Positions 72-16,137 of a stretch of 17,504 nt of DNA are shown here, piece by piece. The notes beneath the pieces are model-generated. The model saw nothing but the letters and a program-made list of their open reading frames with translations, did no database searches and had not been told where the DNA came from. How positions within the stretch are numbered: position 1 is the stretch's first letter; each line of letters starts with the position of its first letter. Where the stretch lies: contig JAHLKH010000357.1 of assembly GCA_025526915.1 (NCBI GenBank), forward strand, positions 1 to 17,504, written 5' to 3'. This DNA comes from Entophlyctis helioformis (Eukaryota; Chytridiomycota; Chytridiomycetes; Chytridiales; Chytriomycetaceae). The translations under genes were made by a program, and so were the position numbers.

Positions 72-203
72 GTTTTGATGAGAGTGCGAGGGAAAGCGAG
101 GGGCAGGCCAAATTCTTGTCGTGGTCCATCCGGATTTGAAAAAGGTTTGAATTCGTGTTCAGATTTTAGTTGGACGATTACCAAGAATTTTGGAAAACCA
201 GCA
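72..203. promoter_or_regulatory. Probable 5' UTR and promoter of the eS1 gene
   Basis: Spacer between the eS1 start codon and the end of the Fanzor pseudogene. No canonical TATA box is evident on the minus strand. It contains a 19-bp motif at 177-195 that recurs with one mismatch at 3950-3968, downstream of the larger Fanzor gene. The promoter role is inferred from position only. Confidence 0.35.
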
Positions 204-1450
204 GGCCGCCTTGGCCTGTAAAGTCGATGCCAAATGCCCACACAACGGGAATGTCCTTCTCTGTTGGCTTGTCACAGCGGCCTTGAGATGCAGCAGATGC
301 GCGCTCTCCAGTGGTCGAGCCTGCCAGCTTCATGATGCCCTCAAGAGCGTTTCCGCGAATTGACATGCTGTTGCTGCGCATGGTGAACCGCTTGGCCTTG
401 ACCTTCTGTGGAATGCCATGCCATGCCATGCCATCCAGTGTGATCAGCAGGCGATCAAGCAGCATGGCGGCCATGCCAATGGGCATCCAGAAACAGAGAA
501 AACGTACCCGTGCATTCAGGAATGGCGTGCAGTACGCATGGCAGCGCAGATCCCAAAAGGCTCTCTCGCCTGCTGTGGCGTTTGGATCGGCATGCTTTGC
601 TGTCTTGAATGCAATGGCCTCGTGGACGTCCGCAGCCTTGGCAAGTCGATTGTTGAGCCTGACACAAGAGACAGGCTCTGTGAGCCGATCTGGTCAAGAG
701 TGCAGAGCATGGCAGCGGCCAGGATCAATGCGTGCACCAAAGCATCCAAGCACGGCATAGACTGCAAGGACGAGACCCTGGGCGGTTCGTGCGGCAGTCG
801 AGAGTCAATTGAGAAACACTCATCCCGCCGGCCCGGATGCTGCCCAGCCAGATCACTTTGCGTGGACTCGCAGAAGGCAGAGCATTGATCACAGCCTCGA
901 TCAACTGCTTGGTCTGACCATCATCCAGATCGAGAGTCGTGGCATCGCTCTCTGCGTTGGCGATGACTGCGTCCTTGGCTATGACATGAGCCACATTCAT
1001 TGCCTCGTGAGTCTCTGCCAGTGTTGGAAGGCGTCCTCTTTCCAAGCAGAGGCCAGGAAGGAGGAGATCCACAATGCACAGCTCGTGGCTTGAACTGAAA
1101 GCAAGCTGGATCGTCCCAATGGTTGCTGATAGCCCCAAGGCTGGCGATGCTGGTTCTTGGGGAGAAGTGGATTGTGAGCATCAGATGGCAGAAACCCGAC
1201 AAAGACAGACAGTGCGAGCATTCAAGAGGTTCATTCTCATGCGCTCCATGATGCCACTGTGCATGCCATTGTTGCGCTGCTCGGCCGTGTCCATCACAGA
1301 TCAACTGAATGGCTTCTGTGATGCAGATGTGCACATCCACGGCTTGCAGGCTGTGGGCACTGCCCGACGGTTTGTATCTTGAGCGAGGCAGCGCGGGCAG
1401 TTGGGCATGCCGACCTGCGACAGCGACGTGTTGCACAGGAGCTGGACAGT
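204..1450 (-). pseudogene. Truncated Fanzor (TnpB-like nuclease) pseudogene, paralogue of the 4136-11417 gene
   Basis: The minus strand is homologous to the 3' half of the large gene at 4136-11417, introns included, so it is a DNA-level copy rather than a processed one. From 204 to about 570 it matches 4757 to about 5120 at roughly 96% without gaps, covering part of the last-but-one exon, an intron and part of the next exon. Upstream the match drops to about 70% but can be followed to about 1450; for example NTSLSQVG here aligns with NKSLSEAG there. The copy is broken three ways. The 3' end stops at 204, losing the zinc finger and RuvC-III. An internal deletion of about 0.5 kb near 695 removes the exons equivalent to 5283-5787, including RuvC-I. 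Frameshifts separate blocks near 1270-1380. The conserved TDG segment before RuvC-I reads AGG here. The upstream limit is uncertain. Confidence 0.75.
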
Positions 1451-1890
1451 GTTGCTCGGGTCTGGTGGGAGTCCGCAGCCCCTCGTCTCCATGGCCGTCT
1501 CGGACTGTCCGGCCATCGTGCTCTTGGCAGTCGTGAGCGTGGCGATCTCGGCGGTCGTGGCAGGGCCGCCTCGGTTGTCGGAAGAGGGAGCCGTGCTTCC
1601 GACAAGGCTTGCATGAATCGTGCTGGCAATCGTGCTGGCCATCATGTGTCATGCCAGCACATCGCCCGCAGCACGCAGCACAGTACGCAACATTCAGCCA
1701 CCCACTTTGACGCCACCAGCGGAGGCAACCACGTCCAACACACGGTCGGAGTTTGTGTGGTTGGACGGCATTGCAACAAAGCCAGAATTCGCCGAGCGCT
1801 GTCCTGGCGTCCAACCTCCGCCCCAGATTTACAGGGTCAGAGCAGATCCCCCGCCGAATCTGGCAAGGCGGCGGCAAGGCGCACACAGAC

Positions 1891-1897
1891 TATAAAG
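1891..1897 (+). promoter_or_regulatory. TATA box of the 1955-3898 gene
   Basis: TATAAAG lies 58 nt upstream of the ATG at 1955, a spacing that leaves about 30 nt to a start site and a short leader. It is the clearest TATA element in the window and supports 1955 over any upstream ATG in the same open frame. Confidence 0.55.
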
Positions 1898-1954
1898 CCG
1901 GGAGACGCACCCCGTGCTTGCCTCCGCCCGTTCGAAAGTCACTATCACCACAGC

Positions 1955-3898
1955 ATGCTTCCAGGGCTCGTGGCCGTCTTCGCCCTAGTGCTCATGGCAC
2001 TATTTCCGGTCTCGCTCCCGCCAGTCTGGCGGTTCCAACCAACCATCAGCGCCTACCAAGGCTTCAACTTCAGCGCTCCTGTCATCGTCCGCCTCGCTCT
2101 CGGCCTCGCCCGCCCCGCTCCCGCTGTTGTCGCCAACGCCAGCCAGCCGTCCTTCGACGAGCCTATCGGCTGCCACGGCGACACAAACAGCTTCGGCCCC
2201 GTCGTCCTGGACCCACTCGGACCGGTGCAGCACGTGCGCAACGACAGCCAGGTGCTGCCTCCGCCCGCTGAGCAATTCCACGCTCTCGTCGTCCCAAGCT
2301 CCGCTCCCACCGATCTGGCCATCTTCCGCTCTGATCTCGTCGTCGGCAGCACGGATCTCGTCCTCACCAGCACGGATCCCGTCGTCGTCCGCAACGCCAT
2401 CGCCTTCTCTCGCACGGGTCTCGCACAGTTCAGCCAGTCCTCGGAGCATCCCGGAGTGGTGCATGCCATGGTGAGCTTGTTTCTGCATGCTGCTGTTGCT
2501 GCTTCCTGCCGCCTACCACCACCATCCTCTGCCACCATTGACACCATCCGCCCATGCCTCGCTTATCTCGATCAGCGGTGCTGGCAAACCGGCATGGCTC
2601 GCATGGCGTTCCGTATCAAGTCGAGGCTGCTGGACACTCTTGTCATCGCACGCGACGCAATCAACGAGTCCTCCTCAAGCTTGTCCATGCACGGCGTCGC
2701 CACGCTGCTGCTTTTGACCATCGTCATCATCCAGCTTGTGGTTCTCGTCGGCCTGGCACGCAAGGCCAAGCGGCTTGAGCTTGAAGCCTGCCGAATGGAT
2801 GCAAGCAGTGATCGACCGGCCGACCATCCCGCTCCTGCTGTCATTGCCATCCCTATCCAATGGATAGACGGGCCTATAAGCATCGTCGTGACATGGTCCA
2901 ACACCGTCAAGACTGTCAATCATACCCCGACCCCCGACACCAAGCTTCTGTTGCTCGCCGCGTCCATTCCACTCCCCGAGGACACCAAGACAGACGAGAT
3001 CGATCTCGTCCTCCTCGCTGCGTCCATTCCGCTCCCCGATGATGTCATGGCAGATGACACCGATCTCTTGCTGCTCGCTGCGTCCATTCCACTCCCCGAG
3101 GACACCAAGACAGACAATGCCGAGCTTCTGTTGCTCGCCGCGTCCACTCCGCTCCCCGAGGACGTTCTGACGGCTGAGATCGATCTCGTCCTCCTCGCTG
3201 CGTCCATTCCGCTCCCCGAGGATCCCAAGACAGACGAGATCGAGCTTCTGTTGCTCGCCGCGTCCACTCCGCTCCCCGAGGACGTTCTGACGGCTGAGAT
3301 CGATCTCGTCCTCCTCGCTGCGTCCATTCCGCTCCCCGAGGATCCCAAGACAGACGAGACCGAGCTTCTGTTGCTCGCTGCGTCCATTTCAATCCCTGAT
3401 GATACCATGGCTGATGACATTCTGACTGATGACAAGCCCTTTGCTGTTGATCATACTACCACTGCCATCCTCGTCTCGTCTCCTGCCGCAAACGATCACC
3501 TTGCGCCTGCTCCTCAAGACGCAGCTGTTTCCGCAGCTCAAGACCTGATCACCCACTCTCAGAGTGCCGTAGAACGGGTCAAGAGCGCCGAAATGGCCGC
3601 TGTCGCGAGAGCACGCAGGTTTCCTGGCCGCACTGGCGATCAGCTAGCGATCAGCCATTTGATTGCATACTGCCCAAGTCGACTCGAGCTTGACGTCAGA
3701 TGGTTGGTCAAGGATGGCGGCACAAGTCGCAACCGAGTTCATGTCTCGTTCTTCGAACCATCCGTTGCAAAACGCCTCATCCGCCAAGCAGTGAAGACGG
3801 ACATCCCGGACGCGGTCCTCGATGCAACGGTGAAGACGCCGTACAACCCGACTGTCAAGAAGAACATCCGTCGTGGCGGCAAGACCAAGAAGCGCTGA
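1955..3898 (+). CDS. Unrecognised 647-residue putative membrane protein with eight 20-residue repeats
   Basis: I do not recognise the family. The frame stays open upstream to 1379, but the ATG at 1955 is preferred because a TATA box precedes it and it starts a hydrophobic, signal-like N-terminus (MLPGLVAVFALVLMALFPV, residues 1-19). Residues ~24-245 are moderately hydrophobic and Pro/Ala/Ser/Val-rich. A strong transmembrane segment at about residues 248-269 (LLLLTIVIIQLVVLVGLA) is followed by basic residues, suggesting a cytosolic C-terminal side. Residues 331-490 are eight tandem units of the type LLLLAASIPLPEDTKTDEIE. The last ~110 residues form a separate basic domain (about residues 545-647) ending KKNIRRGGKTKKR. 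No introns are needed and the stop is TGA. The upstream sequence overlaps the edge of the Fanzor pseudogene copy. Signal, topology and function are inferred from composition only. Confidence 0.6.
   Translation: MLPGLVAVFALVLMALFPVSLPPVWRFQPTISAYQGFNFSAPVIVRLALGLARPAPAVVANASQPSFDEPIGCHGDTNSFGPVVLDPLGPVQHVRNDSQVLPPPAEQFHALVVPSSAPTDLAIFRSDLVVGSTDLVLTSTDPVVVRNAIAFSRTGLAQFSQSSEHPGVVHAMVSLFLHAAVAASCRLPPPSSATIDTIRPCLAYLDQRCWQTGMARMAFRIKSRLLDTLVIARDAINESSSSLSMHGVATLLLLTIVIIQLVVLVGLARKAKRLELEACRMDASSDRPADHPAPAVIAIPIQWIDGPISIVVTWSNTVKTVNHTPTPDTKLLLLAASIPLPEDTKTDEIDLVLLAASIPLPDDVMADDTDLLLLAASIPLPEDTKTDNAELLLLAASTPLPEDVLTAEIDLVLLAASIPLPEDPKTDEIELLLLAASTPLPEDVLTAEIDLVLLAASIPLPEDPKTDETELLLLAASISIPDDTMADDILTDDKPFAVDHTTTAILVSSPAANDHLAPAPQDAAVSAAQDLITHSQSAVERVKSAEMAAVARARRFPGRTGDQLAISHLIAYCPSRLELDVRWLVKDGGTSRNRVHVSFFEPSVAKRLIRQAVKTDIPDAVLDATVKTPYNPTVKKNIRRGGKTKKR
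2945..3424 (+). repeat. Eight 60-bp coding tandem repeats
   Basis: Eight units of exactly 60 bp encode 20 residues each, with core LLAAS(I/T)PLPED followed by a variable acidic tail. There is also a higher-order 120-bp period: 3121-3240 and 3241-3360 differ at only one base, indicating a recent duplication of two units. The register is kept throughout, so the array expands without breaking the frame. Confidence 0.92.
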
Positions 3899-4135
3899 AC
3901 TGTCCTGAAAGCATCCTTTGTGTTGAAGTTATTCTCAATATATCAAACAATTACCAAGGATTTTGGAATTAAATTCGTCGCAAGAGGCGTCGAATAGATG
4001 CCCGCGTATCACACGATGGAAGGTTCGAGTCAGCAACGAGCATGCGACGACAGGCGGGCGATGCACATCTAACGAGGGTCTTACCTTTATCCTTAGAAAA
4101 AGTGACCCGTTAGGTCGATCGGGAGGTCCCCCGAT
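3899..4135 (-). other. Structured non-coding region 3' of the Fanzor stop; possible guide-RNA region
   Basis: Lies between two convergent stop codons. Read on the minus strand, a perfect 6-bp hairpin (4118-4135, ATCGGG/CCCGAT) begins at the first base after the Fanzor stop. A small GACC/GGTC hairpin follows (4104-4116). Further on is a hairpin at 3973-3995 with arms ATTCG/CGAAT and CGC/GCG around one A-A mismatch. A 6-bp GCCCGC/GCGGGC pairing could bracket about 4000-4050. In TnpB and Fanzor loci the guide RNA usually comes from the 3' end and flank of the nuclease gene, so this is where one would look for it. The hairpins are seen; the guide-RNA role is inference and the associated gene carries stop codons. 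Confidence 0.3.
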
Positions 4136-6225
4136 TCAAAGTTGGTAGTCAAACAAGTCACTGTGTGGGATGAGTGACAGGTGACTTGAGGGCAGGCTGT
4201 CTGCGTGCTGGTCGCTGCTGGACGACGGATGGACCATGTCTTGAACGCCACAGGACGGCAGGCTGATCTGGTCCCATGAGGCCACATGCGACTTGAAGTG
4301 TTTCCGCGTTTGAGGCTGTGGGACAACAGGCGGAGCATTTCGTGCACGCAGCTTGATGGCAGTATGCATTGCCGCGATGTCTGCAAGGTACTCTGGCGTG
4401 GCTGGATTGCTGTCGGCTTTGGTGTGCGTCAAGTAGAGCGGCCGGTGTCCAAAGAGCAGATGCCACAGTGCAACCATCCCGATGTTTGTGGCTCCAAGCA
4501 CATCGCGGTGGTAGACAGTCTTGCATGGTATGCACTCGTAGCGTCACAGGTTGGTGCGGTTCTCGTATGGGATCCGCTGCTTGCACTGCGGGCACATCTG
4601 GCTGGTCAGGTTCTCATTGCAGCGGTAGATCTGTGTGTGAGAGTGTGTGTGTGTCAGTTGGTGCACAGATGGATGGACAGCATGGCGTCAGACGCACATA
4701 AGCATATCCAGATGACCGCAGATGCCTGATGAGAAACTTCTCAAACACAGCGTGCCGGCCACCTTGGCCTGTAAAGTCGATGCCAAATGCCCAGACAACG
4801 GGAATGTCCTTCTCTGTTGGCTTGTCACAGCGGCCTTGAGACGCAGCAGATGCGCGCTCTCCAGTGGTCGAGCCTGCCAGCTTCATGATGCCCTCAAGAG
4901 CGTTTCCGCGAATTGACATGCGGCTGCTGCGCATGGTGAACCGCTTGGCCTTGACCTTCTGTGGAATGCCATGCCATGCCATGTCATCCAGTGCAATCAG
5001 CAGGCGATCAAGCAGTATGGCGGTCATGGCAATGGACATCCAGAAACAGAGAAAACGTACCCGTGCATTCAGGAATGGCGTGCAGTACGCATGGCAGCGC
5101 AGATCCCAAAAGGCTCTCTCGCCAGGCTTGACGCCTGGATTGGCATGCTTTGCGGTCTTGAATGCAATGGCCGCCTGGATGTCAGCTGCCTTGGCATATC
5201 GATCAGCAAACCTGGCGCAAGAGGCAGGCACCGTGAGTTGATCTGGTCAAGAGTGTATGTGGCAGAGTCATTGCATGCATACCACCGCTGAAAGTCATGC
5301 TCAGCTTGAAACATGCCAGAGGAGAGCACGTAGTTGGACTCGAGCTTATACGAAAAGTCTCTGAGATCAACCAAGATGCTGGACGCGCCATACAGGTACC
5401 GCTGGCCCCAATCAAAGCTGACAACGCGAACAGTCTGGTAGCCTTGGTCAGTGAACAGATTGTTGGCATTGATGATGTCGCGCAGTCGCTGCGAGGCGTA
5501 AAAGTTGCGCTGGGCCTGTTGTGCCATGGAATGAGTGAGGAATGTGCAATGCATGTGCACCAATGCGCGAGTTTAGCATGCAAGTGGCTTACAGGATTGG
5601 GCGTGTATGGCTTGGCGGCTGACGGGTTGGCTGGATTGGCGGCTGTGGATGGCATGTCAGTCGGTGTGGACAACAAGTGTGCGTCTGGATTGGCACAGCA
5701 ACTCACATTCGCCGTTAATGTAATCGGGCTCGCCATCAGCCTCGTCAACAAGCCACGGCTGCTCGCCTGAAGACGCCGCGTTGGGATCTGCAGATCAAGG
5801 CGGCAGTCAGAATCAATGTGTGCACCAAAGCATTCAAGCACGCCACATACTGCGAGGTGACTCTGGACGGTTTGTGCGGCAGTCCAGTGCCAGCTGGTAG
5901 ATGCTGTATCCATCCGTCATGATGCTGCCAAGTAGGATCGCCTTGGTTGGTCTCGCTGGACGCACGGCCTTGATCGCAGCCTTGATATGCTTCTCGCGCT
6001 CCTTGCCATCCAGACCCTGCTCGTCGGCCTCTCGCGTCGCCTTGGCTGTGGCATCGGCAACCGCGTCCATCTCATCTTTGGCTTCTGAAGGTGTCTGGAA
6101 GCGACCGTTCTTGGGGCAGAGACCTGGGAGAAGGATGTCAAAGATGCAAACCTCGCGACTTGCGCTGAATGCGTCTTGGATATCCTTGTTGGATGACGCA
6201 AGAGCTGACTCGGCATCTTCATAGC
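4136..6225 (-). pseudogene. Fanzor-type RuvC nuclease module with CxxC zinc finger, premature TGA
   Basis: C-terminal seven exons of the large gene. Fanzors are eukaryotic relatives of IS605/IS607 TnpB, RNA-guided DNA endonucleases. Landmarks in order: SIMTDGYSIYQLALD (the TDG segment typical before RuvC-I); RuvC-I with D1544 in VVSFDWGQRYL; a long helical stretch; VVWAFGIDFTGQGG in the RuvC-II area, where no canonical Glu is obvious; E1730 in CNENLTSQMC; zinc-finger cysteines 1737, 1740, 1757 and 1760 (CPQC and CIPC); and RuvC-III D1767 in YHRDVLGATNIG. A TGA at 4544-4546 splits the two CxxC halves, so translation would end before RuvC-III. The code is standard here, since UTP18 and the 647-residue protein also end in TGA. 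About 120 further residues follow RuvC-III. Introns in this part are small (64-102 nt) and all in phase. The Fanzor family call is strong. Confidence 0.85.
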
Positions 6226-8421
6226 CTTGGAGAAAAGTGCAGAGTCAGCATCAAATTGTGTACACATGGCATAAACAGGCAGTGCGACCAACCAAGTGCA
6301 GCCAGAAGCTGTAGTCTCAATGCCTGCAAAGCAGGATCCTGATTGCCACGGATGCGCTCATCCTTTGTCCTCATCACCGCCCAAAAGAGGGTGGTCTCAG
6401 TAATGAGGACAAACGGATCGCGGCCTGCAGGCTGCGGACACAACTTGAGGGATGAGCCTGCGAGATCACACAACTGCTTGAACTTGCCGGCCTCTGACAG
6501 CGACTTGTTGCGCACGACCGCCGTGAGCCTGTGCAGTGCTTGTGGGATCTCGACAACGCGTCCGTCTTGTCTGGTTGACAGTGGCATGCCAGACGTGGCG
6601 TCCCCGGTGGCTGTATCCATTGCCTTGGCAAATTCCGCTACCTTGTCAGCAGATATACCAGGAATCAGTCGGTGGATTGCCCAGTCAATGAGCATTGACT
6701 GGTGGGTCATGAAGTGCACAGCAAGCATGCCACAGATGCCCCGTGCCAGATTTTTGTAGATGTCGTTCCGAGCAGCTGCACACAAACTGTCGTCAAGCCT
6801 GCCAGGCAAAACGGCATGCATCGTGCTTGCGTCCATGTGCACAATGGCTGACAGCAATGAGCCGGCCTGCGTCGCGTCCATCTTGGCTGCCCGCGCCACA
6901 CCAGCCCACATCTTGGTCATGCTGTCCCGGATCATCTGCTGCGTCCATTCGCGGTTGATGATCATCTGCATGATGGTCACAATCCACGAGTGGGCCACAT
7001 GCTTTGTCGCCCGTGGCATGACTGACTCCTGACCAGTGAGAATGTAGCTCAGGTATCGCAGAAGCATCGTGATGGCTCCCTCGCCACCAGAGGTGCTGTT
7101 TGTGAGCACCTTGAGCAGATCATTTGCCGATGGTACTGCCCATTGTAGTGGTGGCTCGATGGCTGGTGGTTGGGCATCGGTGCTGCTGGATGCGGCGGCT
7201 ACTGCTGCTGGTGCTGCTGTTGCTACTGCTGGTGCTGTGTCATCGGTGAAGGTGCAGATCTTGACCATTGTGCCCGCCTCAAGTCTCACCAAGTCGCCAT
7301 AGTGAGCGATGTTGGTGTTGCTGCAGAGCGGGCCTTCGCCGTACATATGCCAGGCATTAACGGGCCATCTGAGGATGCATCCAGCGGCGTAGAGCCATGT
7401 GCTCTCGTCCTTGAAGTGATCAGGATCAATATACACATATTCTATCTCACCATTCCTCCTGGCCTCCATGACGCAGAACTTGAGTGGCAGCGGTGCATAT
7501 GGGTTGAGTGCGACGAGCTCTTTGACGATGGCGCCGATCATAGTGATGCATGCATGCCGCACGTCGGCCGTGTATCGGTACACGCCGTTGAAGATGCTTT
7601 CTGAAAGTGAACCGCGGGTCTGTGTCACTGGCGCCGTCTTGGCCTGGCATCCAAAATGCTTTGCAAGCATTAGATCTCCAGAGAGCATTTCCTGTATGTA
7701 GCACAAGTCAACATACACAAAGCCAGACATGCAGAGCAACATGGCAATCAAAACTCATACCTCCATTTTGACAATCTGCTCAGGGCGATCGTATGTGCTC
7801 TCCACTGGCCTTGCCTCATTGCCATGGATGGCAGCAGCAGCCGTCATGACTGGCAATGCCATCATGCGGTGGATCTTTTCAAGCATCTGCTCTATCGCCG
7901 ATCTTTCACCACGCTCATATCTGTCAAAGAACGCACCGGTCAGCACACACACTCAAGGCACATGCCATGCCATGTGCCACTTACGCCCGTGTCTCGGCAT
8001 CAGATTGAGCCTGGCGGGCTTGCCTGCTCGCATCCTTCTTGTGCTCCTGGATGAACTTCTTGGTCTTGGCCTTCTCAGCTTGCTCAGCTCACTCCTTATC
8101 ACGCTCAGCCTGCATGGCCGGTGTGACCAGGTATGGATCCTGCTGTGGTTGAATGCAATGTTAGGCATGCATCTTGAATGTGCACAAGATGCTCGCAATC
8201 ACAAGCCTGCAGTTCAACTCACAGTCGTCCTTGTGTCTTGAAGCACACCAATGTGAAAGACCTTGTCGCAATCTGTGCCTCTATCATCTGCGGCTCAAGG
8301 TGGCAGCAGCATCTTGCATGGTTTTGGTGGCTTGACGGCCTGTTGAGTGGAAGGATAAGCAATTGCAGCAAGCCGTCACATGCAAACAGAGCCAGCAAAT
8401 GCAAAGACGCACCGGTACTCA

Positions 8422-11417
8422 ATTGATAATCGACTGCAGCATCTGCTTTGCTTGGTCATAACACTCGCCAAATTCTGACACTCAGAAATCAGCATGCCTG
8501 ACATCTGTTGGGTTTGTGAAAGGGAAGAGAGTCGGTAGCAGATAAGACTGCACAGATGGTTGAGTTCATTGGATACCAAGGGGGATGGAGGAGGCACAGA
8601 CCTGCACAGATGGTTGAGGAGAGCTGGGGAAACTCTGTGCAGGAAAGGCAGATTGGTGTCAATGGGCAATCACGTGACCCAGACTCGATCCTTACAGTTT
8701 GTCAGGGCATTGAGCGTCTTTATGGCCATTTCGCGAATATCGGCAACAGCTTCTGGGGTCGCAATCCGTGTGCTCCTTCTGAGCGGCTGCTTTGTCTTTT
8801 TACCCTTGACTGTCACACAAATGCCGTGATCAGTGGTGAATACACAATGTCGCACTGTGTCAACCCGTGCAGAGCAAACCTGGCTTCTTTAGACGCCTGA
8901 AAGATGCACATTTCAAGCCTGGATACTTCTTGAGCCGCTCATTCAGTCTTGCTATCACCTTCTGCTCACCCAGTAATGGATCAAGCCGACAGCATTGAAG
9001 ATCAGCAACAGCATGCAGTGGACAGCCAAGACACACATCCAAGCCTCACAAAACCCACCAATGCATGATAAAGAATCTTGCCGGCCGCACTGAGCCTTGC
9101 ATATGCTTCTTTAGCGATACGCCAGTCATGCACAGCCTGCAGCAGCTGCTTGCTTGCATTCTCGCAGATATCAGCAAGGATGTCGCGGCCGTTGAGAATG
9201 TCGTCGGCGAGGAGGTCTGCCGTGCATCGGAGAACGCAGCTAAACACGACACGGCAGCCGTTGAGCATGACAAAAACGTCGTCCAGTCGCCTTGTGTTGA
9301 CAATGTGCTTGGCGAGCACCATGACTTCATCCCATGTAAGGTGCCAAACCGCACCACTGGCATTGCCCTTCCGCTGCTGTGTCGTGTGGCTCAAGCAGCA
9401 GCCACTGCGGGCCGTGCATGCAGAGGCAGATCTGCCAGTGGCATCCATCAGAATCAGTGCCATGAGAATCCTCCAGAGATCACAAGCACGCCTACTTTTT
9501 TCGAGCTGAGGCGGTCCTGTTGGCAGTCCTGCTGTTGCCATTGGATGATGCATGCATTCATGTCAATGCCATGCTGTCCAAGTGCATCCAAAGCAAGACT
9601 TACAGCGGTATCATTTGAGCAAAAACATCCCCATAACAACCATGGCTTTGGTCTGTGAACTCTCCAATATCCGCTCCAGTTTCGTCACGGTCGAGAAACA
9701 CCGCGAAGGCATTGCTGAACGATTGAGCAAGAGGCTTGCCGCCGATCTTGTACATCTGCAACATAAATGAGGCCTTGAAGACGTCCACAAACATCCTGGC
9801 AATGTCTGGGTCTTGCAGGCGTTGACAGAACTCTGCGACAGTGATCCCTGCCCATGTTGCCTCAAAACGAATGCATGCCATAATGCACTTTGCAGCCGTG
9901 ACGATCCCTTGCAAGTCATCATTGCAGCATCACGAGTAAGTCAAGGTCGCAGTGCATGGCATCCAAAATTGCAAAGCAGGCAAGCCAGCATACCAATCTC
10001 ATCACAATGAAAATAGTCATTTCTCGCTGCGGCTGCCGCCAACCAGCAGATGTCAAGAATCTCTGGCAAGCCAAAGGTGGCTGCAATAGATGCTACACCT
10101 GGGTGGTTGTACAATCTCATCTGTGCAATCTGTCTGCCGCGCATTTGCAGCAGCAGGACAGGTGTAACGGATGCTCGGTCGCGGTCACGTGATCCACGTG
10201 ATCCACGTGACCCACGTGACCGGACAGACATTGTCGGGCCGCACCGGCCGCTCTGGTTTCCCCCGTTCTTGCAGTCGTCTGCCCGCCGTTCCCCTGCGTG
10301 CATACTCACTGCCCCGAGACCAGGTCTGTGCTGCCTCCCAATGAAGTAGTCGTCTGCCCGCCGTTCCCCTGCGTGCATACTCACTGCCCCGAGACCAGTT
10401 GGCAAGTCCGCCTGGAGGCCCAGTGCTACAACAGGGCAATACCCCTCGCAATGAAAGATAAGGTCGGTATCACCACTGATGACGACGACCGGCACATTGC
10501 TGTCAAGAAAGGCGCGTGAGCCATGGATTGGAGAGGCATGCAGAAGACCAACTGTAACGGATGCTCAGCCGTGGTCATGTGATCCACGTGACCCACGTGA
10601 CTGCACAGACATTGCCCGGCCGCGTCCCCCGCTCTGGTTGCCCCCGTTCTTGCAGTTGTCTGCCCGCCCTTCCTCGCGTGCATACTCACTGCCCCTGCAA
10701 CCAGCCGGCAAGTCCGCCTGGAGGCCCAGTGCTACACCAACCAACCTTGCTTCGCGCACACGGCATGCAATGCAAACATCTGCCTCATTTTTACAAAGGC
10801 ACACAGACGACCCTTCCCCAAAGTATCCAAGAAGACCCCCAATGGCCCCACAGATTGCCGCCTTACGCTCGCATGTCAATGGAAATGCCCACTGGAGTGA
10901 CTGGATCTCATCCCTGGAAAGGCACTCAGTCAGCATGGCATGCAAATCAACAACAGCAAGTGGCATACTTTGTGAGCCTGTTGCCTTTCTGGTCTGCTTT
11001 TCGCTTGGCCACCATTGTCTGGATCGACAATGCTGCTTCCAAATTTACCTGTGCCCGCTCAGTGCGGACAGCCTTGACATTGGTGTTGAGAAGCGAGCCA
11101 TCGACATGGAGCCGGACTGCGTGGAGCTTTCCAATTGATGCTGCGAGGCTGGCAATGAGTGGCTCGAGTGTCGGCGTCCAGTTTTCCTCTGGCTGTGCCA
11201 GCAGTATTGGTGCTGCTTTGTAGATATCGCCAGTAAAAAGACTGAGAACGTCCACATGCACAACGCACTGGATGGGCGGACGCTCTGTGTTGTGCTGCTG
11301 CAGTGTTTGATGGGGCTGTACCACGACCTGAATTGCACCCGAGAGAGGGTTTGTGGGATCAAAGGTTTTGCTACCACCTGCTTTGTCGATGGGTACAGTT
11401 GCGCCGACGACTCCCAT
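8422..11417 (-). CDS. XPG/FEN1/asteroid-like 5' nuclease module (intact reading frame before the first TGA)
   Basis: This is the N-terminal 726 codons of the large gene, uninterrupted by stops. The acidic residues expected of a PIN/XPG-fold metal-dependent nuclease all appear in order: D56 (VDVLSLF), D106 (HVDGS), E193 and D195 (NEADVCIA), D236 and D238 (ISGDTDLIF), and D387 (RNDY). RNDY is followed by a helix-hairpin-helix-like DEIGIVTAAK spanning an intron. Members of this superfamily cut flap or branched DNA, or RNA in the asteroid group; the substrate here is unknown. Residues ~250-340 are encoded by an in-frame inserted element, between the SGDTDL motif and RNDY, which may disrupt folding unless spliced. 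Residues ~400-726 have no recognised domain; KVIARLNERLKKYPG and KGKKTKQPLRRS are basic helical pieces. The family call is firm; activity is not established. Confidence 0.65.
8548..8618. repeat. Two direct 17-bp repeats inside an intron of the XPG-Fanzor gene
   Basis: CTGCACAGATGGTTGAG occurs at 8548-8564 and again at 8602-8618, 54 bp apart, inside the largest intron of the gene (8481-8695, 215 nt). On the coding strand each copy ends in CTGTGCAG, a good acceptor-like sequence, so the intron may have grown by a local duplication that copied a splice acceptor. Confidence 0.6.
10163..10430. mobile_element. Introner-like/MITE-like element, copy B (268 bp), inserted in an exon
   Basis: Bounded by TGTAAC at one end and GCTACA at the other (terminal inverted TGTA...TACA) and flanked by the perfect 5-bp direct repeat ACAGG (10158-10162 and 10431-10435), the expected target-site duplication. 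It is nearly identical to copy A at 10553-10736 but 84 bp longer. One cause is a 75-bp internal duplication: a 50-bp unit at 10274-10323 is repeated at 10349-10398. The other is one extra 9-bp CACGTG unit. Element plus duplication is 273 bp, a multiple of three, and the minus-strand frame stays open through it, so it could be translated as 91 extra residues. Excising it with one duplication restores a continuous XPG motif order. No AG sits at its 3' junction, unlike copy A. Confidence 0.8.
10186..10221. repeat. Four 9-bp CACGTG (E-box) units inside element copy B
   Basis: Four tandem 9-bp units CACGTGATC/CACGTGACC, each with the palindromic E-box CACGTG. Copy A has three related units at 10576-10602, the first degenerate (CATGTG). 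The unit number differs between copies by exactly one. On the minus strand the copy B array would read as Gly-Ser-Arg repeats. Confidence 0.85.
10553..10736. mobile_element. Introner-like/MITE-like element, copy A (184 bp), coincident with an intron
   Basis: Starts TGTAAC, ends GCTACA, and is flanked by the perfect 5-bp duplication CCAAC (10548-10552 and 10737-10741). On the coding (minus) strand the intron is 10737-10552, that is, the element plus one base of each duplication. The donor GT is made from the last G of one duplication plus the element's first T. The acceptor AG is made from the element's last A plus the first G of the other duplication. Splicing therefore leaves the exon sequence as it was before insertion, apart from the duplicated bases needed to keep phase. 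This is how introner elements are known to create introns. It carries no open reading frame of its own and would be non-autonomous. Confidence 0.8.
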
Positions 11418-11746: not shown

Positions 11747-11862
11747 CCAATCACAGCGATTCCACCAGGATCAACCAATCACAGCGATTCCACCAGGATT
11801 GACCAATCACAGCGATTCCACCAGGAGTTGACCAATCACAGCAATTACCAGAATTGACCAAT
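11747..11862 (+). promoter_or_regulatory. Five-fold CCAAT-box array upstream of UTP18
   Basis: CCAAT occurs at 11747, 11775, 11803, 11832 and 11858, with spacings of 28, 28, 29 and 26 bp. The boxes lie inside a decaying tandem repeat whose core is CCAATCACAGCGATTCCACC. The array ends about 115 bp before the UTP18 start. CCAAT boxes are bound by the HAP/NF-Y complex in fungi. Whether the array serves UTP18, the divergent XPG-Fanzor gene, or both cannot be told from sequence. Confidence 0.65.
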
Positions 11863-11976
11863 CAGGAATATTCCACCAGGGGTAATGGTATGAGAACCGG
11901 GCCGATGTTATTCGTTAAAATCACTTCTACCAAACTTTTTTTGACACCTTCGCATCTGTCACGACAACGGACGACA

Positions 11977-14106
11977 ATGAGTCCAACAGCAGGCGGTTCG
12001 ACGGTCAAACAGCAGCCCAAGCAGCAGCCCAAGCCCAGGCAGAAGAAGGGCGATGCGCAGGAAAAGCATTCATCGCAGAGCCGCATTCAGCCTGCCAAAG
12101 CCAAAGCCCAGCAGCCGCAGCCGCAGCAGCCGCAGCAACAGTCGACGAAGCTGTCCAAGAAGAGCGAATCCAAGAAGCGCAAGCGTGGAGAAGAGGCTGT
12201 CATTACATCACTCCGGCAGCTGCCACAGGCCGACGGCGACGATGGAGCGAGTGTGCCAGCCATGGACGACGAAGAGCGCGAGCTGGCCGACCTTGTCTTT
12301 GGAGGCGAGGTGGAGGGTGCCGTCTCCAAGGTGCTCGACGGGTTCGACCTGGCCACGTTCGAGCGTCGCCTGCCAGAAAAACATGCCAAAGACGACGACG
12401 ACGACGACGGCAACGACGATGCGCTTGGCTTCTCGATCGACACGGCCGGCATCGCTCAAGACGAGACCGACCTTGCCATTCCAACAGAGACGGATGCGCT
12501 TGCTAGCGCCAGAGTGATCAGCGGTCGGGCCGTGAGCAGCGCCTTGCAAGACGCACCGGCGGCCTGGACCGACGACGGCGATGAGCAGGTCAAGGTCAAC
12601 ATCCGCGACAAGAAGCGTCTCCGCAAGCTGCGCAAGGACTTTGACGAAAAGGCCATTTCCGGCACAGACTATGAGCTGCGTCTGCGTGCGCAGTACGAGC
12701 GCATGTTCCCGACACCAAAGTGGGCCGAGATCCCAGAGGAGAAGCAAACGGCATCCAAAAGACGGGCTGTGGGTGCAGACAGCGATGACGGCGGCAACGA
12801 GGACGATGACCAAGACGACGAGGACAACGAGGCTGTGAACGACCAGCGCGTCATTACAAGCGCAACCGATCCCAATGCAGGAGATCTGGGCCACAGCGAG
12901 CTGCTGCGTCTTTTGCGCACGACACAGCCAATCGTGGACAGCCATCGCCGCCGCGTGTTGTCTGCAGATAAGCTGGACATTGTGCGCGTCAAAGACGCCA
13001 ACCAGCTCGCATATGCACAGGTATGCTTTTGGGAGCGCTTGGCGATGATTGTTTTTCTGCCGATGCGCCTACCAATGCGCATACCAATGGGCATACCACT
13101 GACGCCCCCGTGCCCAGGCTGTCATCCAATCTGCCCAATTCCATCCCCGGGCACCGGTTCTGCTCACTTGCGGATTTGACAAGACCCTGCGTCTGTTCCA
13201 GATTGACGGAAAGATCAACCCCAAGATCACGAGCATCTATATCAAGGACATGCCTATTTTCCGCGCTCACTTTACACCCGACGGCCGTCAAATTATCATG
13301 ACGGGCCGTCGCAAGTGGTTCTATGTGCACGATCTCGAGACTGGCCAGACCAACAAGATCTGGGGCATTCGCGGTAAGTTGCCGCGCGACGCGTTGCTCC
13401 CCTGCTTGAATGGCTTCTTTGTCTGACGGCTGCCAATCCAACCCAATCAGGCCGCGACGAAAAAAGCTACGAGCTTTCGATCGTGTCTCCGTGCAACCGC
13501 TTTATTGCATTCATGTGCCGCAATGGATACATTTCGCTCGTGTCGCTCCAGACAAAGCAGTGGGTCGCCGACTTGAAGATGAACGGCCTGGTCACGGCCG
13601 TTGCGTTTTCCAAGTCGGGAAAGCACCTCTACTCGTTTGGATCCGATGGCGAGGTGTACCAGTGGGACACGGCCACGCGCCAGTGCCTGCACCGCTTCCA
13701 CGACGAGGGCTGCGTCAAGGCAACCGCGCTTGCTGTCTCGGATGACGAGCAGTACATTGCAACCGGCACCGCTGCCGGTGTCGTCAATGTGTACCTGACC
13801 AAGACGGCTCTCAAGAGCAGCAACCCCAAGCCCGCCAAGACGTTCATGAATCTCACCACGCCCATCTCCGAGCTTCTCTTCCACCCTGACTCGCAGCTCC
13901 TGGTCATGGCCAGCAAGAACGTCAAGGACGCTCTGCGTATTGTCCATCTGCCGTCCCTGCGTGTGGTGCAAAACTGGCCGACTGGCGCGACCCCGCTCGG
14001 CTATGTGTCAACGGTCGCCTTTTCGTCGGGCGGTGGTGGCTATCTTGCCATTGGCAATGCAAAAGGAAAGGTGCTCCTCTACAAGCTGACGGCATACAAC
14101 GCGTGA
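11977..14106 (+). CDS. UTP18: UTP18, WD40 subunit of the U3 snoRNP / SSU processome
   Basis: Three exons (11977-13020, 13118-13373, 13451-14106) joined by GT-AG introns of 97 and 77 nt give 651 residues, a little longer than the yeast and human proteins. The start ATG at 11977 has A at -3; the open frame continues upstream but enters the CCAAT array. Residues 1-~330 are low-complexity and charged: Gln/Pro/Lys-rich, a nuclear-localisation-like KKSESKKRKRGEE, and a poly-Asp run. From the end of exon 1 the WD40 propeller begins (AVIQSAQFHPRAPVLLTCG, DKTLRLFQIDGKINPKI), then IFRAHFTPDGRQIIMTGRR, YELSIVSPCNRFIAFMCRN and VYQWDTATRQCLHRF. UTP18 works in the nucleolus in early cleavage of the 18S rRNA precursor. 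No indels or stops interrupt it. It is divergent from the XPG-Fanzor gene and convergent with G-beta. Confidence 0.9.
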
Positions 14107-14819
14107 GAGGACGCGGTCGTGCACGGCCCATGAATGCCGCTGGATGAATATGCTGGACTGGCCGACGCCGCCGTCTCTTTCTGCTTTGCCATGCCCGGTC
14201 TGTTTTAGTTTCCTATTTCTCCCCCAAATACAGCAGCCTGATACATGTTCTCGAGTGGAATGGACAGAGCGTATCGAAAAAGGAGCCTTGGCATTCAAGA
14301 AAGAAACAGGAGATGTTTAGGTGGTGGAAATGATTGTAGTGGTGGTTGTCGTGGTGGCAGGGAGGGGACGAAGCGATGAGCGTGGGCGGCCGCAAGGGGT
14401 TGTCGTGAGAAGAGCCACGACCGATCCAGACGAGCAGCAGCACAAGTACGACCACCACGACCACCACGACCACCACCAAAAAGGACATAAGATAAGAACG
14501 TGAGGGATGGGAGGGATGGGGATATGGTGGTAATCGACGCACAAAAAGGCGGCGGTCGGGACGTGGCGGTGCAGGAGGGTGGAAGCAAGGAAGAGGAAAA
14601 GGCGGGAAACAAGAGCGATGTGGCGGGAAGACGGACTTGTGGAAAACGATGATGTATAAGAGCAAGGGCGGAGACACTGGCCAGCAGACGAGGGGGTGGG
14701 AATTTGCAGAGGGCCGAACAAGAGTGGGAGCGAATGGATGGACGGGCGAGGGCTGCCCTCTGCCGCATCCCTCTCGGTCGACGATCCGCACGACTTTTTC
14801 TTGCCACTCGCCGACTCCT
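14107..14819. other. Convergent intergenic spacer (3' UTRs of UTP18 and G-beta) with an inverted repeat
   Basis: No gene is supported here. The notable structure is a GTGGTGG-rich arm at 14339-14357 and its near-perfect inverted counterpart, a CCACCACGA repeat, at 14452-14477. They could pair around a loop of about 95 nt in a transcript from either side. No AATAAA signal is seen next to either stop codon. Confidence 0.6.
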
Positions 14820-16137
14820 TTACGCCCAGACCTTGAGCAAACTGTCCCAGCTTCCTGTGCAGAGTGCCATAACCGTCGGAAGACACGCCGAGACACGACA
14901 CGCGGTTCTCGTGCGCGGCCAACACGCCGACTCGCTCGCCCTTGAGGGTGTCCCACACGTTGCAGTTGAAGTCATCATAGCCTGCAAACAGAAGACGACC
15001 CGAGATGGAGAAGGCGACGGATGTGATGCCGCAGAGAATGTTGTCGTGTGTGTACTGGTTCAATTCGCGGTCGGCACGGAGATCGAACAGGCGGCAAGAC
15101 GCATCGTCCGAGCCTGTGCCAAACGCCTCGCCGTTGGGGAAGAATCTGGATTGCGCAAACAAGAGTGCCACGGTTGGTGTGCAAGGGTCAGCCATCTGCC
15201 AAGGCAATGCCAGATCACAAGGAGCGGGCAACGCACTGGACAGCATTGATATCCGACTCGTGCCCAGTAAAGGTTTGCACACATCGGCCTGTCCGGATGT
15301 CCCAGATCTTTGCGTGGCATCGCAGGCGCCCGACACAAAACGTTCTTGTCGGGAGACAGCGACAGCGACATGACGTCACCAGTGTGGTCGTTGAACTCGA
15401 GCGTCTTCATGCCAGCATCAATGTCCCAGAGCATGCACGACATGTCGCCGGAACTGGTGAGAATCTGGCGATCGCTGATGAAACGGCAGCACGACAGGTA
15501 GCCGGTGTGAGCAGAGAGTTCGCGGGCGACCTTGACGCTGCCCTCCTTTGTTTTCAGTTGTAGATGGAGCAGATGTTGTCGAGACCACCGCAGGCGACGT
15601 AGTTGCCAGATGGCGCGTAGGCGCCACGTCATGACCCAAGATGACCGCAGCGGAATGGCGTGGACTTTGTTGGTTGTGAAGGCGTCCCAAACAATCAGCT
15701 TGCCGTCCTGGGAAGCCGATACCAAATGTCTCTTGTCCGATGCCCAGTGCATGGCGTAGATCTTGGCAAGATGGCCCTTGAGGGTTCTGCGAACCTTCAT
15801 CATGATGCGAGGGAGTGCTCAATGTCTGCGGCCACAGCCTTGACTGATTGCGCGGTTGAGGTTGCGATGGGCAAAGATGGGCCAGAAGGGTATGCGAGAT
15901 CCGAGTCAGTACAGAACGACTGCCCAAAAGATCGGCAGAAGGGGAGACGATGCCCAACAGGAGTAGCATATCAAAACAAAGGCAGGCCAGTGGGAGAAAG
16001 CAAGGCGTCGGGAGAGCAGCGGCAGAAAGCGACGTACGTGTTGTGTCTGCAAGAGCATCCCGCTTCTGCTTGATCTTTTCCTTGAGGGCCTCTGCTTCTC
16101 TACGGACGCTGGCGATCTTTTCCGAAATGTCGGCCAT
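14820..16137 (-). CDS. Heterotrimeric G-protein beta subunit, interrupted by apparent single-base indels
   Basis: Three exons: 16137-16038, 15843-15237 and 15145-14820, with introns of 194 and 91 nt and stop TAA. The N-terminal coiled coil that pairs with G-gamma ([20 protein letters not shown]) is followed by a seven-blade WD40 propeller. Highly conserved blocks include [78 protein letters not shown] and, at the end, [13 protein letters not shown]-beta works with G-gamma and G-alpha at the plasma membrane below seven-helix receptors. To read through, six one-base corrections are needed, near 15817, 15624, 15557, 15340, 15313 and 14871 (four missing, two extra). Encoded residues around them are otherwise strongly conserved. 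They may be assembly errors or recent inactivation. The family is certain; whether the gene is functional is not. Confidence 0.88.

Follow-up and report, generated by a model that had tools for sequence, protein, structure and literature searches.

A decayed transposon of Entophlyctis helioformis carries a gene in which an XPG/FEN1-like module appears to be fused to a Fanzor1 nuclease

The stretch of Entophlyctis helioformis DNA analyzed here (the window; 17,504 nucleotides, contig C357 in our numbering) contains an old, CpG-decayed insertion of a DNA transposon with terminal inverted repeats (TIRs), and a gene fusion is the only gene recognized within it. The observations as a whole are probably best explained by a TIR transposon encoding a protein of about 1,774 residues, in which an XPG/FEN1-like module of the PIN superfamily is joined through a linker to Fanzor1, with a Fanzor part that would cut DNA and an attached module that would trim it. 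Judged from its sequence, the window copy is dead and the fused gene is real at the level of the family.

Searching the genome (29.6 Mb, 482 contigs) delimited the transposon at window positions 11903-3935 on the minus strand, which corresponds to about 7.3 kb after subtraction of later insertions (Table 1). Eleven full-length copies, including the one in the window, aligned end to end with sharp ends and a mean pairwise identity of 97%. Their TIRs start with GGG and are imperfect (GGGCCCGGTTCTCATACCATTACC versus GGGCCCGATATTCATACAATTACC). Exact TIR patterns occurred 75 times (left end) and 112 times (right end) in the genome, while reversed control patterns did not occur at all; 35 of the 75 left ends were followed by one of 100 listed right ends (of the 112) on the same strand and 7.2-15.9 kb downstream, compared with a single pairing for the wrong order or strand. 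Among the matches listed, which we compared by eye, 33 of these 35 TIR pairs enclosed a listed Fanzor zinc-finger exon, leaving only the pairs with right ends at C60:101255 and C186:10801 without one. Putative target site duplications (TSDs) of 9-10 bp were present in part of the copies (GAATAACATC/GAATAACTTC in the window), with TSD-like matches of 7-11 bp (score of at least 7) flanking 5 of 11 copies as compared to 2.7% of mispaired flanks. TIRs, TSDs and multiple copies show this gene to be carried by a transposable element, a criterion for Fanzor1. For the open reading frame around exon 12 (6219-7754) alone, the genome search gave 168 matches or more.

Table 1. Coordinates of the transposon's features in the window
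Feature	Position	Strand	Basis
5'-side target site duplication GAATAACATC; one base off from its partner	11904..11913	.	Flank comparison
5' terminal inverted repeat GGCCCGGTTCTCATACCATTACC	11881..11903	-	End comparison and genome pattern search
Exon 1: XPG-like module, D56 and D106	10969..11417	-	Alignment; conserved in six families
Exon 2: XPG-like module, E193/D195, D236/D238, D297; split by two LTR-type insertions	9994..10913	-	Alignment, six families
LTR-type insertion in exon 2; TG...CA ends, 5-bp TSD (by eye)	10553..10736	-	Absent there from the other ten full-length copies
Further exon-2 insertion of this repeat, the two being 81% alike across 166 bases	10163..10430	-	Absent there from the other ten full-length copies
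Exon 3: conserved XPG-like module ends here	9604..9907	-	Alignment
Exons 4-7 (9531-9496, 9404-9059, 8961-8927, 8879-8846): N module's C-terminal portion, then the beginning of the linker	8846..9531	-	Alignment
Exons 8-11: linker into Fanzor; window-copy stop codons starting at 8484, 8421, 8297, 8091	7761..8786	-	Alignment
Third insertion, in exon 8; perhaps LTR, TG...CA (by eye)	8518..8696	-	Absent there from the other ten full-length copies
Exon 12: large exon, N-terminal part of Fanzor	6266..7691	-	Alignment
Exons 13-18: TDG segment, RuvC-I (FDWG)	4698..6225	-	Alignment
Exon 19: NENLTS, C4 zinc finger, YHRD, C-terminal tail; window-copy TGA starting at 4546	4136..4630	-	Alignment
3' terminal inverted repeat, degenerate in the window copy	3937..3957	-	End comparison and genome pattern search
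3'-side target site duplication GAATAACTTC	3925..3934	.	Flank comparison

The TIRs together with TSDs of 9-10 bp give insertion a MuDR-like appearance. No transposase was recognized in the element, and two Pfam models, MULE (PF10551) and Transposase_mut (PF00872), had no match in the genome. An element without a recognizable strand-transfer enzyme would need a separate transposase, or the fusion, for insertion; the combination of MuDR-like ends with zero matches to the two models would imply either an unrecognized transposase acting in trans or a fusion that exceeds the known roles of Fanzor. As to the mode of movement, a MuDR/MULE-like element with its transposase supplied in trans is a credible possibility that we entertain tentatively, and it is compatible with the fused gene structure. 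The GGG termini and the TSD-like matches in 5 of 11 copies agree with it, as do published parallels with 9-bp TSDs that, in the accessible text of the source, come without a MuDR transposase (PMC3627910). It is opposed by the absence of PF10551 and PF00872 from the genome and by the TIR pairs themselves, almost all of which hold the Fanzor zinc finger, with no transposase-bearing partner among the matches listed.

The surroundings of the element in the window were also inspected. A truncated relative of the element's 3' part lies at 201-901 (minus strand), perhaps extending over 149-1984; its DNA matches positions 5255-4754 of the main copy at 92% and 5986-5789 at 73%, and a forced protein alignment over 149-1984 gave 169 identical residues out of 325. 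The plus strand contains a stop-to-stop open frame of 858 codons (1322-3898) with tandem PLPEDTKTDEIDLVLLAAS-like repeats; it terminates some 40 bases away from the 3' end of the transposon and had no Pfam match. Beside the element, a host gene at 11803-14106 (plus strand) showed WD40 matches at 13378-14103 and a frame at 11803-13176 with no Pfam match; the two frames together read, presumably, like Utp18. A further host gene at 14317-15818 (minus strand) encodes the beta subunit of a G protein (PF25391, E = 3e-67 and 1.4e-50).

The gene model was built by splice-aware protein-to-DNA alignment with the three insertions set aside. As claimed in a first-pass annotation of this DNA, the minus strand carries both modules, with a start at 11417 and a stop at 4136. 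In the window copy's family (family A), the gene is split into 19 exons and has about 1,774 codons (1,699 modeled plus a 75-codon tail); an XPG/FEN1-like N-terminal module some 400 residues long is followed by a linker and then by Fanzor1. The gene's 18 introns are 40-102 nt long in the window (55, 86, 72, 91, 97, 47, 59, 73, 83, 82, 69, 40, 84, 64, 77, 71, 102 and 67 nt); their number agrees with the eighteen placed before, which cannot all equal the present ones. The single frame of 1,888 codons with phase kept throughout, in turn, did not survive: the window copy is not an intact gene, as it carries five in-frame stops, one insertion that breaks the frame and, in all, three insertions within exons, and without insertions the model falls to the above length.

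The decay of the window copy could be read against its relatives. The zinc-finger TGA at 4546 is CGA in all 16 other copies holding this stretch, two of which differ elsewhere in it. Among the 56 C-to-T changes private to the window (both strands), 41 fell at CpG, which makes up 760 of 3,672 C sites, and this concentration makes the copy look decayed by CpG transitions. The same dominance of CpG changes suggests cytosine methylation of the element repeat. None of the 11 aligned copies was wholly open: each has stops or frame breaks, the fewest in L013 (one) and the most in L025 (eleven), and a frame break at residue 210 is common to six of them. In five other families, when modeled under guidance of the family-A peptide, we found three to eight frame breaks each, one stop each in C264 and C53, and additional short 'introns' in the large exon.

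Three long 'introns' of 186, 269 and 191 nt were considered as genuine introns and ruled out, as they are not present in the other ten full-length copies; for the first, the repeat at 10553-10736 moreover occurs on eight contigs as LTR-like direct pairs separated by 5.6-6.5 kb. An introner reading of the three insertions was rejected on the same evidence. The exon-2 insertions begin with T followed by GTAG and end near TTACA, so that a resemblance to GT-AG introns is possible.

The C-terminal half is predicted to be a Fanzor1, and this assignment is solid. The family-A peptide matched PF07282 (Cas12f1-like_TNB) with 40.8 bits at a cut-off of 26.3 (E = 2.5e-10), and natural genome copies, 150 of which were scored, exceeded the cut-off as well. 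Taken by itself, the final open frame of the window copy reached a sub-threshold 15.5 bits with this model, which was the sole notable Pfam match of single window frames. The published Fanzor motif, as given in the accessible text of PMC3627910, reads D-X(125-275)-[TS][TS]-XX-[C4 zinc finger]-X(5-50)-RD, and the family-A model contains D1430, 188 residues, TS at 1619-1620, CPQC/CIPC, five residues and RD, with a TDG segment upstream of this region. All of the signatures named in the first-pass annotation (TDG, FDWG, CPQC...CIPC and YHRD) were recovered, supporting its Fanzor1 C-terminus. A candidate guide RNA was placed at the element's 3' end, because Fanzor1 reRNAs run about 15 nt past the TSD according to the accessible text of PMC10711439. 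An Rfam search of the window gave no match; across 19 3' ends, a double change was seen in 1 of 41 predicted pairs (covariation term 0.1), and the folding z score was -1.95, computed for one copy only. Viral contigs searched with the Fanzor peptide and with the XPG-module alignment returned pattern matches and no relatives.

The N-terminal half was compared across six families, that is family A and five more (C26, C5, C264, C53 and C98), whose N modules are 33-68% identical to that of family A. The XPG/FEN1 active site holds seven acidic residues in a set order. In all six families, whose N-module rows were read with the family-A peptide as a guide, D56, D106, E193, D195, D236, D238 and the aspartate of an (N/T)D(Y/F) motif (D297) are invariant (D10, D60, E147, D149, D189, D191 and D249 in the numbering of row A1). 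The first row has 35 D/E columns; just eight of them do not vary between families, and all but one of those eight fit the XPG set. In order and rough spacing, we take these seven to match the XPG/FEN1 active site; farther along from the second aspartate, a K and an R that are likewise invariant presumably resemble K93 and R100 of FEN1. Six of the seven acidic residues had been named correctly at first pass; the seventh is D297 rather than D387, a 90-residue shift that fits the insertion at 10163-10430 having been read as coding.

Pfam scans of the N module with XPG_N, XPG_I and XPG_I_2 gave nothing significant, the nearest being XPG_I_2 with E = 0.41 in one of six members; a PDB sequence search with both modules and a PHROG search of the N module likewise gave no significant match. 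Genome-wide, XPG_I listed three places, none of them in an element that we read and two of them host XPG- and EXO1-like genes (C1, C43), and XPG_I_2 listed the C1 XPG gene plus one further place, C38:89474. Alignment of the N module with the host EXO1/XPG-like sequences by hhalign yielded a probability of 0.25% versus 0.30 and 0.33% for two controls, with tiny alignments and low power, and lined up the DSD and DY motifs in register. The earlier designation as an XPG/FEN1-like nuclease is thus borne out by the residue pattern, and not by a significant profile or by an hhalign score better than the two controls. The same failures would suit a fusion of Fanzor to a different fold with acidic residues, be it a degenerate domain, a DNA-binding one or some other PIN-like one, given that XPG_I's three places exclude the element. 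We nevertheless regard such a fold as doubtful in view of the seven acidic residues, invariant in all six families in XPG order and at roughly XPG spacing, the correct hhalign register and the XPG_I_2 hit in one member. We describe the N module as XPG-like, a putative kinship by residue pattern.

To what extent both modules form one gene was addressed at the genome scale and at the junction. Searching with exon 1 returned 136 matches, or 128 loci once second fragments (8 rows) were set aside. At least 61 of these 128 had a listed Fanzor zinc-finger exon (150 exons listed) 6.1-9.3 kb downstream on the same strand, as compared to 0, 0 and 1 in wrong-arrangement controls, and 67 had no partner among the matches listed. 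Recurrence of the same exon order throughout the genome indicates that the two-module arrangement is not chance. In C26, whose N module is 68% identical to that of family A, the whole 1,699-residue model aligned, and sixteen introns, those of the linker included, had the same or nearly the same length (55, 86, 72, 91, 97, 47, 56 for 59, 73, 83, 82 and 69, then 84, 64, 77, 71 and 102 nt); the introns of exons 4-7 thus measure 91, 97, 47 and 56 nt versus 91, 97, 47 and 59 nt in the window. The C26 large exon showed extra gaps in the splice-aware alignment. In the four remaining families, one open frame continues directly after the XPG-like part for 155 (C5), 163 (C264), 358 (C53) and 122 (C98) codons, and luck is an unlikely cause of open linker frames in all four.

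Complementarily, dN/dS was compared for one family pair, A versus C26. All 14 segments had ratios below 1 when L013 (0.24-0.91) or L015 represented family A; with L010 this held for 12 of 14, as exon 6 (15 codons) and residues 1461-1610 reached 1.15. The linker (residues 546-712) gave 0.34-0.71 with all three copies. Linker intron lengths, open frames and dN/dS together favor one fused gene, and the first-pass proposal of a single gene structure joining both modules in one element holds in many copies and six sequence families. Homologues that are always two genes, which would have spoken against it, were not what we found, as the frame is open past the XPG-like part in four families and the junction introns of C26 keep their lengths. 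An apparent shared frameshift at the family-A module junction was discarded, since a 59-nt GT-AG intron removes the break in re-aligned copies and C26 has a 56-nt intron at the same place. Stand-alone Fanzor genes were likewise discarded: the diverged open frames of 600-800 residues that we looked at are the large exon of related elements.

Two neighboring genes in one transposon, XPG-like and Fanzor, with an untranslated linker or a spurious join, are improbable: family A does need two short junction introns (47 and 59 nt) to keep the frame, the junction sequence pattern is identical in all 17 family-A loci holding the site (window included) and a fully open copy is absent among those sampled, but the linker exons combine conserved intron lengths with the above constraint relative to C26, single frames run past the XPG-like part in four other families and no start codon is common to A, C26 and C264 at a possible Fanzor start (by eye).

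The families also proved to share their 3' ends. In the final 1.8 kb (roughly 5750 to 3932), counting introns, family-A DNA is 82-92% identical to C26, C5 and C264 and mostly 79-87% identical to C98 and C53; upstream, DNA aligns in short pieces only, C26 excepted. The shared part (window 3932-5750; loci L035 and L037-L040) comprises RuvC, zinc finger, 3' untranslated region and TIR, and the 5' 5 kb has diverged. In line with this, dS between L013 and C26 drops from 0.23-1.02 upstream to 0.11-0.13 in the 3' part. Exchange or gene conversion between families at the 3' end is the simplest reading, and a tie between this sharing and guided cutting there is speculation.

Under the fused-gene reading that we favor, Fanzor, guided by RNA from the element's 3' end, would cut empty or donor sites homologous to the flank, and repair of the guided cut would copy the element back, restoring or spreading it. 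The attached module, a metal-dependent flap-nuclease-like domain, may trim 5' flaps or ends at the guided break. Insertion itself would depend on a separate transposase, or on the fusion. We consider it rather unlikely that these elements form a self-sufficient TIR lineage, with the XPG-Fanzor fusion as the whole mobility machine instead of a DDE transposase; guided RuvC cutting would then be coupled to a structure-specific 5' nuclease in one polypeptide, the element would be kept up by repeated repair and copying, and the shared 1.8-kb 3' ends would be the trace of this process.

Among known systems, Academ transposons carry an XPG nuclease, have TSDs of 3-4 bp and encode their own transposase. 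They resemble the present element in placing an XPG-type nuclease in a DNA transposon, and differ from its 9-10 bp TSD and its Fanzor. With the host XPG/EXO1-like genes (C1, C43), the N module shares the catalytic acidic order and the D(S/T)D and EA(D/E) motifs; unlike the XPG/FEN1/EXO1 family, it shows no significant sequence match, is fused to Fanzor and lies inside a transposon. Fungal Fanzor1 elements of the MuDR superfamily, namely ROr-4, PBl-3 and MCi-4, were reported by Bao and Jurka in 2013 (PMC3627910). According to the accessible text of that report, they likewise have Fanzor1 in a TIR element with TSDs of about 9 bp and no MuDR transposase in the element, whereas Fanzor here is the C-terminal part of a multi-exon XPG-like fusion. 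SPu-1 of Spizellomyces punctatus is described in the accessible portions of PMC3627910 and PMC10432273 as a 633-residue, one-frame element of about 2.1 kb with a putative TA TSD. Fanzor1 RuvC, zinc finger, RD motif and a TIR element are common to SPu-1 (SpuFz1) and the present family, which differs from the SPu-1 so described in its roughly 1,774 residues, 19 exons, length of about 7.3 kb and TSD of 9-10 bp.

A search of full-text literature, outside which Repbase reports, supplements and most subscription papers lie, found no description of an XPG-Fanzor fusion among the papers listed, and the accessible parts of PMC3627910, PMC10711439, PMC10432273 and PMC6338049 do not mention one. Fanzor1 in MuDR-like elements is already known; its joining to an XPG-like module in many related elements appears to be new. 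What Fanzor does for the transposons that carry it is treated as an open question in the accessible text of PMC10432273 and PMC10711439. That Fanzor and a flap-nuclease-like module have stayed joined in families that have diverged suggests a processing of ends at the guided cut. If the fusion is true, these elements would naturally unite an RNA-guided nuclease and an end-processing one in a single fusion, and hence offer an architecture that can be tested.
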